Of a stretch of DNA of 64,000 bases, positions 8,062-9,979 are shown one piece after another. The stretch spans positions 1 to 64,000 of the forward strand of contig JAKQIY010000057.1 in NCBI GenBank assembly GCA_029561455.1, read 5' to 3'. Numbering within the stretch: the stretch's first letter is position 1; each line of letters starts with the position of its first letter. Under the pieces are notes generated by a model, which worked only from the letters and a program-made list of their open reading frames with translations, was not told where the DNA came from and ran no database searches. The position numbers and the translations under genes are program-made. The stretch is from a bacterium (lineage in GTDB: Bacteria; Zhuqueibacterota; Zhuqueibacteria; Residuimicrobiales; Krinioviventaceae).

Positions 8062-9393
8062 ATGCCCACCACCCACACCTGCATCCTCGGCGATGCCCGC
8101 AACATGGACGACGTCGCCGATTCATCCGTGCACCTGGTCGTCACCTCGCCGCCGTACTGGCAGCTCAAAGATTACGGCGCATTAGAGCAGATCGGATTTA
8201 ACCATTCTTATGAGGATTATATCAACCACCTCAACCTGGTGTGGAGCGAATGTTACCGGGTTCTGCATCCCGGCTGCCGCATGGTCATCAATATCGGCGA
8301 CCAGTTTGCGCGCGCGGCTTATTACGGCCGCTACAAGGTCATCCCCATCCGCACCGAGATCATTAAATTCTGCGAGAGCATCGGTATGGATTATATGGGC
8401 GCCATCATCTGGCAAAAGAAAACTACCATGAACACCAGCGGCGGCGCTACGATAATGGGCTCGTATCCTTACCCCCGTAACGGTATTATAGTGATGGATT
8501 ATGAATTCATCCTCATCTTTAAGAAACCGGGCGACCCACCCCGGGTCAGCCAGGAAATTAAAGAACAATCCAGGCTCAGCAAGGAACAATGGCAGGAGTA
8601 TTTTAGCGGCCACTGGAATTTTGGCGGCGCCCGGCAGGACAAACACCTCGCCATGTTTCCGGTGGAACTGCCCAGGAGAGCTATCGAAATGTTTACCTTT
8701 AGCGGCGAAACCGTGCTCGATCCTTTCCTCGGCAGCGGCACAACATCCCTGGCCGCCATGATGACCGGGCGCAGTTCGATTGGTTATGAGATCAACAAAG
8801 ATTTTCTGCCGGTCATTAAAGAAAAACTAAAAATTCAGGAAAATGTGTTGTTTAATGATAATTCGTTTACCATAAAAGAGCAAAAACCACTAATAGTGGA
8901 TTGGCAGGCGCGGATAAACACACAAAAATATATATTTCATGATCCGCTGATATTGGATAAAAAAACTGAAGCGGCGAAACGTAAATACGGCTCGAAAATC
9001 AATCAGCAGGATTCGGAAAATGGGGCGAAACGGGAAACACTATACATAGTAAAAGAAATTATTGCCCCGGATTTAATAAAACTAAATAATGGCGAGATTG
9101 TACGCTTGATTGGCATCAAACAGATTATAGAAACTCAGGATCAGGCTATGGAATTTTTGCGTAAAAAGATTCTAAAAAGACAAGTATATCTTAAATATGA
9201 CAACATAAAACATGAAGAACAAAATTATACTCTTGTATATCTTTACCTGAAAAACAAAACCTTTATTAATGCCCATTTAGTTAAAAATGCCTTATGTCAA
9301 GTTGATAAAAATTATAATTATAAATACAAAGAGAAATTTGAATTATTGCAAATGGAGCATTCAAATAATGAAAACACGACTGAAAATTCCTAA
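8062..9393 (+). CDS. Beta-class DNA methyltransferase (N4-cytosine type) with SNase-like C-terminal domain
   Basis: Modification enzyme of a type II system. Residues 1-265 form the catalytic part in beta-class order: the catalytic motif TSPPYW at 28-33, which favours N4-cytosine methylation, and the AdoMet motif DPFLGSGTT starting at residue 220. A second domain occupies residues ~325-430 (VKEIIAPDLIKLNNGEIVR, LIGI, later LVYLYLKNKTFINAHLVKNA), with the strand order of staphylococcal nuclease. Two SNase active-site positions are kept (the Asp in APDLIKL and the Arg in IVRLIGI), but those matching D40, T41 and R87 are changed, so it probably binds DNA rather than cuts it. Base composition drops sharply near 8830, at the domain border. 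The endonuclease gene overlaps the 3' end by 26 bp. Confidence 0.85.
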   Translation: MPTTHTCILGDARNMDDVADSSVHLVVTSPPYWQLKDYGALEQIGFNHSYEDYINHLNLVWSECYRVLHPGCRMVINIGDQFARAAYYGRYKVIPIRTEIIKFCESIGMDYMGAIIWQKKTTMNTSGGATIMGSYPYPRNGIIVMDYEFILIFKKPGDPPRVSQEIKEQSRLSKEQWQEYFSGHWNFGGARQDKHLAMFPVELPRRAIEMFTFSGETVLDPFLGSGTTSLAAMMTGRSSIGYEINKDFLPVIKEKLKIQENVLFNDNSFTIKEQKPLIVDWQARINTQKYIFHDPLILDKKTEAAKRKYGSKINQQDSENGAKRETLYIVKEIIAPDLIKLNNGEIVRLIGIKQIIETQDQAMEFLRKKILKRQVYLKYDNIKHEEQNYTLVYLYLKNKTFINAHLVKNALCQVDKNYNYKYKEKFELLQMEHSNNENTTENS

Positions 9394-9979
9394 TAATGAA
9401 ATTATTGAGTTGTTGGGGATTGCACCAAATGATTTCCCCAAATATACCACTCAAATAATAAATTTGGCAAATCAGAATTCACAGGGAACTCGTCCTGCCG
9501 TTGTTGGTCAAATGAGTGAATTGATAAAGGAATTTACTGGTAATTCAATTAAAGAATGGGAAAAGTGGTATTTAAACAAATATCCTGATGCAATTGAAAA
9601 TGCAACAAATAAAATTGAAAACATGGTTGAAAACTTTCGCCAAGCAATAACTAAGATTGATCAGAATATGATTAGACAATGGGCTAAAGACTTAGTTATT
9701 GTTAAAACATTTATAGGTTTAAAGTTTCAAGAAGCAATTTTAAATAAAACAGCACAATTATTCTCAGCTCAATATCGATTAGCGACTCCCGTTGAAGAAT
9801 CAAAGGGAATTGATGGATTTATTAACGAGATTCCTGTGAGTATTAAACCGGAATCATATAAATCTAAAAAGTCTTTATCGGAAAAAATTCAAGTCAGTAT
9901 TATATACTATGATAAAGCAAAAGATGGATTAACAATGGATATAGAAGAAATTTATATGTTATTGAAAAATAACAACTAA
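9368..9979 (+). CDS. MjaI-like type II restriction endonuclease
   Basis: The start chosen is the ATG at 9368 (MKTRLKIPNNEI), inside the end of the methyltransferase gene, with GGAG 10 bases upstream. The 203-residue protein opens with PKYTTQIINLANQNSQGTRP followed by VVGQMSELIKEF, which I recognise as the conserved start of the MjaI restriction-enzyme family; MjaI and its N4-cytosine methylase act on CTAG. A PD-(D/E)xK-like core is likely at residues ~148-162, GIDGFINEIPVSIKPESYK, with the Asp and the Lys of SIK as catalytic candidates. The gene is strongly AT-rich, like the 3' half of the methyltransferase, and unlike its neighbours, pointing to horizontal transfer. The CTAG specificity is inferred. 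Confidence 0.8.
   Translation: MKTRLKIPNNEIIELLGIAPNDFPKYTTQIINLANQNSQGTRPAVVGQMSELIKEFTGNSIKEWEKWYLNKYPDAIENATNKIENMVENFRQAITKIDQNMIRQWAKDLVIVKTFIGLKFQEAILNKTAQLFSAQYRLATPVEESKGIDGFINEIPVSIKPESYKSKKSLSEKIQVSIIYYDKAKDGLTMDIEEIYMLLKNNN

Follow-up and report, generated by a model that had tools for sequence, protein, structure and literature searches.

The 64,000-nucleotide stretch of DNA analysed here (the window) carries a type II restriction-modification pair with an MjaI-family endonuclease (R), in which the methyltransferase (M) ends in a domain predicted to be a degenerate staphylococcal nuclease (SNase) fold. We found that this domain, hereafter the tail, stays with the methylase in evolution and is not tied to the endonuclease. 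It seems to us about an even chance that the tail is a basic, non-catalytic grip on the DNA backbone that serves methylation, in a clade of methylases which acquired an SNase domain and then lost its active site. Across many phyla, an apparently disarmed nuclease fold is kept inside an enzyme whose job is to guard DNA against a nuclease.

The methylase and endonuclease genes form an MjaI-like pair

The Pfam search assigned the catalytic part of M (residues 23-254) to N6_N4_Mtase (PF01555) with an E-value of 3e-42, and the motif order, SPPYW at residues 29-33 ahead of DPFLGSGTT, is that of the beta-order methylases. A sequence-only reading of this DNA had called the catalytic part complete, with TSPPYW at 28-33 and DPFLGSGTT from 220; both positions were recovered, and both motifs were invariant or nearly so among 63 relatives. 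The best solved relatives of M were TTHA0409 of Thermus thermophilus (2zie, E 1.4e-53), a putative modification methylase, and the bdelloid N4-cytosine methyltransferase 8s9m. Among solved structures, the catalytic domain of TTHA0409 is the nearest, with about 35% of residues identical when the structures are aligned, and TTHA0409 has no SNase tail. The SPPY motif and the relatives suggest that the product of M is N4-methylcytosine (4mC). Column counts further showed that a linker motif, DKKxDPKKLxFGSKID, is present in most relatives but degenerate in the window copy.

The match of R to RE_MjaI (PF09568) covered model positions 1-163 of 164 with an E-value of 1.6e-66, and M is adjacent, so the earlier assignment to an MjaI-like restriction-modification system holds. 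The R gene most likely starts at the ATG at 9368, rather than at the start of the open reading frame at 9287, which leaves an overlap of 26 bp with M. The two genes lie in tandem, and the adjacency of the methylase is conserved in relatives, where the layout is nearly always M followed by R, often overlapping. By its relationship to known endonucleases R probably cuts CTAG, and M would have to protect the same sites. CTAG was the most under-represented 4-base palindrome of the window (17 occurrences against 33.4 expected, counted in the window only). This would fit a CTAG target weakly, since CTAG is commonly rare in bacterial DNA.

Table 1. Positions of the genes, domains and aligned active-site residues in the window
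Feature	Position	Strand	Basis or family counts
M gene, 443 aa: beta-order DNA methyltransferase of the cytosine-N4 type, SNase-fold domain at the C-terminus	8062..9393	+	ORF, PF01555, PF00565
M catalytic domain, residues 23-254; TSPPYW 28-33, DPFLGSGTT from 220	8128..8823	+	Pfam match
M linker, residues 257-325, partly low-confidence	8830..9036	+	pLDDT <50 at 297-324
Predicted degenerate SNase (OB-fold) domain of M, residues ~326-434	9037..9363	+	PF00565, AlphaFold models, Foldseek
R348, equivalent of SNase R35	9103..9105	+	column counts: Arg 49/63, Lys 13/63
K353, equivalent of SNase calcium ligand D40	9118..9120	+	Lys 52/63, Arg 7/63, no Asp among listed residues
Y389, equivalent of SNase R87	9226..9228	+	column counts: Asn 36/63, His 8/63, Arg 6/63
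R gene, 203 aa: restriction endonuclease of the MjaI family, 26-bp overlap with M	9368..9979	+	PF09568, E 1.6e-66

We then compared the pair with the characterised CTAG systems. Over 167 aa, R shared 56% identity with the MjaI-family endonuclease encoded on the Methanothermobacter plasmid pFZ1. This enzyme falls in the same Pfam family, and its gene lies next to that of a methylase without an SNase match, which we take to be M.MthZI. This methylase is also a beta-order N6_N4_Mtase, but M shares only 33% identity with it, and M.MthZI (355 aa), unlike the window M, gave no SNase match. The pFZ1 genes are convergent, whereas those of the window are in tandem and overlap. Judged by these sequence identities, R is a close family member, while M belongs to a separate clade and is not a close relative of M.MthZI. 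M.MthZI is an experimentally characterised 4mC CTAG enzyme, and M.MjaI, M.BfaI and M.MthZI are 303-364 aa long (PMC5867850); the characterised CTAG methylases of the MthZI and MjaI systems are without the tail. No description of an SNase-methylase fusion was found in the open-access literature searched.

The tail is predicted to adopt an SNase fold

The C-terminal part of M matched the SNase model PF00565 with scores of 28-32 bits, where the cut-off is 21 (E 2.5e-6 for the whole protein and 2.5e-7 for the tail alone), and the NCBIfam model NucI at E 1.8e-7, which is below the equivalog cut-off of that model. Searched alone, the tails of 62 of the 63 family members matched PF00565. An AlphaFold model of M, built on an alignment of 63 sequences, had blocks of about 79-97 pLDDT across residues 331-430, and a model of the tail only reached a mean pLDDT of 85.5. 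When the tail model was compared with the PDB by Foldseek, the best 50 matches were all staphylococcal nuclease, typically over 117 columns with an rmsd of 2.1-2.2, TM 0.70/0.73 and E-values from 4e-7; with the whole M model, SNase came directly after the methylases. The models thus place residues ~326-434 of M in the SNase OB-fold, and the tail has several structural residues as well as the fold in common with the staphylococcal nuclease family. The extra C-terminal domain had been proposed to be SNase-like from the sequence alone, and the predicted fold agrees. The whole M model had a pTM of 0.64 with an unstructured linker, and the placement of the tail relative to the catalytic part is not fixed in it.

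In the sequence the tail comes after motif I, and the region that beta-order enzymes usually use for recognition does not include it. That it is merely the target-recognition region of ordinary MjaI-type methylases was rejected, as M.MthZI has no SNase match and the tail has the predicted SNase fold.

Catalytic residues are replaced in the fused SNase domain

Aligned with SNase, the window M carries D337 for D21, R348 for R35, K353 for D40, Q354 for T41 and Y389 for R87, just as the sequence-only reading had mapped them. Its statement that D21 is kept applies to the window M but not to the family, in which this residue is usually Glu (38/63) and Asp in 5/63. The equivalent of E43 was not conserved across the family tails, and a larger set of 112 tails showed the same active-site pattern as the 63-member set. 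The tail does not carry the set that marks an active staphylococcal-type nuclease (D21, R35, D40, E43 and R87), and was classed as degenerate. By inspection, standalone SNases from relatives of the window genome still have the DGDT motif together with the arginines of R35 and GR, and because they keep these residues the loss is specific to the fused domain; a search for a separate SNase gene in the window's own genome found none. With D40 turned into Lys or Arg and R87 into Asn or other residues throughout the family, the fused domain almost certainly does not cut DNA, in line with the earlier suggestion of a probably inactive nuclease.

Some residues of the tail are nevertheless well conserved. 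D380 is invariant and the D83-equivalent Asp mostly kept in the 63-member family, and the strongest conservation was found at N398-K399-T400-F401-x-N403-x-H405 (within NKTFINAHLIK). As this segment does not coincide with the former active site, the function may depend, at least in part, on another face. The net charge of the tail averaged +6.3 and was positive in 63/63 relatives.

A proposed DNA-backbone grip and its nearest alternative

The architecture of M resembles that of CcrM, in which a conserved catalytic domain, a linker and a poorly conserved C-terminal domain follow one another in the same order. In CcrM, conservation of the C-terminal domain is much below that of the catalytic domain, and the domain binds the backbone of the non-target strand and its deletion kills activity (PMC6787082). 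It is, however, SAND/PWWP-like and not SNase, and the product is N6-methyladenine at GANTC (PMC6787082). M has no SAND/PWWP-like C-terminal domain, and CcrM is an architectural analogue only. Because the tail is basic in 63/63 relatives and CcrM is built alike, although its C-terminal fold is unrelated, we favour a grip on the DNA backbone. In this proposal, the M clade of beta-order cytosine-N4-type methylases would have gained an SNase domain, most likely close to its base; the active site of the nuclease would then have been lost, with the calcium ligand D40 becoming Lys or Arg, and a basic OB-fold left. Without cutting, the tail would grasp the DNA backbone next to the target and so help the methylase to bind duplex DNA or remain on it, in the manner of the C-terminal domain of CcrM. 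DNA binding is plausible from the basic charge and the CcrM plan, and by the same analogy we favour an effect on methylation. A more specific version, to which we give somewhat less than an even chance, is that a captured SNase, its metal-binding Asp replaced by Lys or Arg, was domesticated as a phosphate-binding clamp needed for methylation, in a widespread and apparently undescribed clade. If true, this would add to CcrM a second, independent case in which a beta-order methylase relies on a C-terminal DNA-binding domain.

Alternatively, the tail may serve dimerisation or folding of the methylase and make no direct contact with DNA. Beta-order methylases are often dimers, and the position of the NKTFINAHLIK motif away from the old active site would suit such a module. 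CcrM is also a dimer, but its interface lies mainly in the catalytic domains (PMC6787082), and the consistently basic charge of the tail suits DNA better; we regard dimerisation or folding as unlikely, though next in line after the grip.

The fusion is widespread

At least 580 relatives of M were found in a search of genome contigs, and nearly all of the best 80 match beyond residue 415, which indicates that the tail is present in them. The hosts span many bacterial phyla, as well as the archaea Methanothermococcus, Methanosarcinales and Methanophagales. Since this ranking favours tailed proteins, a count anchored on the endonuclease was added: 33 genomes had RE_MjaI beside a methylase that could be read, and this methylase was tailed in 31 of them and tailless in two (G238 and G084). 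In G084, the cellular tailless methylase lies beside an intact endonuclease (L135/L151). The search for the same fusion that the sequence-only reading had proposed thus turned it up in hundreds of genomes, and the gene directly downstream almost always encodes an MjaI-family endonuclease. A chance fusion or a peculiarity of the window genome was rejected on the same distribution.

In phage and plasmid collections, no record covered 80% of the M query. The IMG/VR search returned nine loci, and a second viral scan with L121 as the query recovered only L121 itself. Close tailless homologues were present on the viral contigs L118 (63% identical), L120 and L121; these methylases (L118:1805-2782, L120:3911-4852 and L121:3977-4750) have no RE_MjaI match alongside and possibly serve phage self-protection against these restriction-modification systems. 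Given these tailless close homologues, the need for the tail is not universal, or else its job is compensated; enzymes in some settings may do without it, and what it adds may be a matter of degree. On another viral contig, the methylase (L116:3983-5383) is part of a 467-aa frame whose weak match to the endonuclease model (E 6e-4) hints at the remnant of an M-R fusion.

The tail follows the methylase rather than the endonuclease

The sequence-only reading had offered two roles for the tail, added DNA binding or a tether for the endonuclease made from the overlapping gene. The first is plausible, as described above. The second, by which the tail would hold R to M and coordinate cutting with protection or restrain the endonuclease, draws on the very strong adjacency (the 31 of 33 genomes above), on the usual gene overlaps and on the loss of the tail from some phage methylases that lack an endonuclease. 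We analysed distance correlations in 72 complete cassettes. Distances of the tail correlated with those of the catalytic domain (r 0.83) but not with those of the endonuclease (r 0.08), and endonuclease distances gave 0.09 and 0.08 with the catalytic domain and the tail, respectively. The partial correlation between tail and endonuclease was 0.02 (p 0.27) in the whole set. Within endonuclease subtypes there was modest co-inheritance; a weak tail-endonuclease residual in the subtype of the window (partial r 0.27, p 0.018) speaks for a tether, and its absence from the second subtype (-0.06) speaks against one. The two subtypes are very divergent, but the methylases and tails differ no more between them than within them, so that the tails appear interchangeable. 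On the methylase tree, which is a quick tree and on which part of the endonuclease absences are due to decay, the tail state required 5 changes, endonuclease presence 20 and endonuclease subtype 12.

Tailed methylases without an RE_MjaI match were found in at least ten genomes: G002, G008, G012, G030, G044, G046, G050, G053, G054 and G079. The tail evolves faster than the catalytic domain of M. It is under purifying selection in G030 and G044, which share the surrounding genes and have no endonuclease: between them the tail showed a dN of 0.088 and a dS of 0.91, a ratio of about 0.10, compared with 0.07 for the catalytic part. Orphans that keep the tail under purifying selection indicate that it serves the methylase. 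Conversely, the endonuclease is present and the tail absent at L135/L151 and in MthZI. With the endonuclease repeatedly lost or swapped while orphans keep the tail, we consider a tether improbable.

About as improbable is that the tail senses another substrate, such as methylated DNA, single-stranded DNA or RNA, and regulates the methylase or expression of the operon. There is precedent for dead SNase derivatives that have other ligands, among them eTudor domains, in which catalysis is lost and the fold retained (PMC7641849); the tail differs from the SNase of Tudor proteins in its fusion to a DNA methylase, in the loss of D40 and R87 and in having no Tudor insertion. That the tail is still a nuclease with a rebuilt active site, so that one protein methylates and cuts, would fit the retained fold, the mostly kept R35 and the conserved D380 and D83-equivalent, but it is very improbable given the family-wide loss of D40 and R87 and the orphans, for which an unguarded nuclease would be a burden. 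Direct tests of what the tail does are made possible by the natural tailless homologues, by the two interchangeable endonuclease subtypes and by the orphan copies.

Additional observations on the locus and its relatives

The orphan tailed methylase of G030 and G044 is syntenic (L145/L146), with downstream frames that resemble ClpS and MutY by eye, and is possibly a maintained epigenetic enzyme. At L006, L018, L023, L031 and L111, the endonuclease gene is broken by frameshift or decay with the tailed methylase still open; such splitting is a typical route to orphan methylases, and assembly errors are possible. At L075 (3100-3780) and L048 (4140-5250), a tailed methylase without RE_MjaI is followed by an overlapping gene of 222 and about 345-370 aa, respectively. 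These genes had no convincing match in Pfam or NCBIfam and are possibly replacement endonucleases.

Finally, third-position GC within M falls from 0.71 to 0.32 near position 8773 (codon ~237), and that of R is 0.23. This break is the largest among the 63 family members (log-likelihood gain 35.9, followed by 20.4 and 11.2). The nearest protein relatives of M are much alike on both sides of it, and recombination inside M near this position is suspected.
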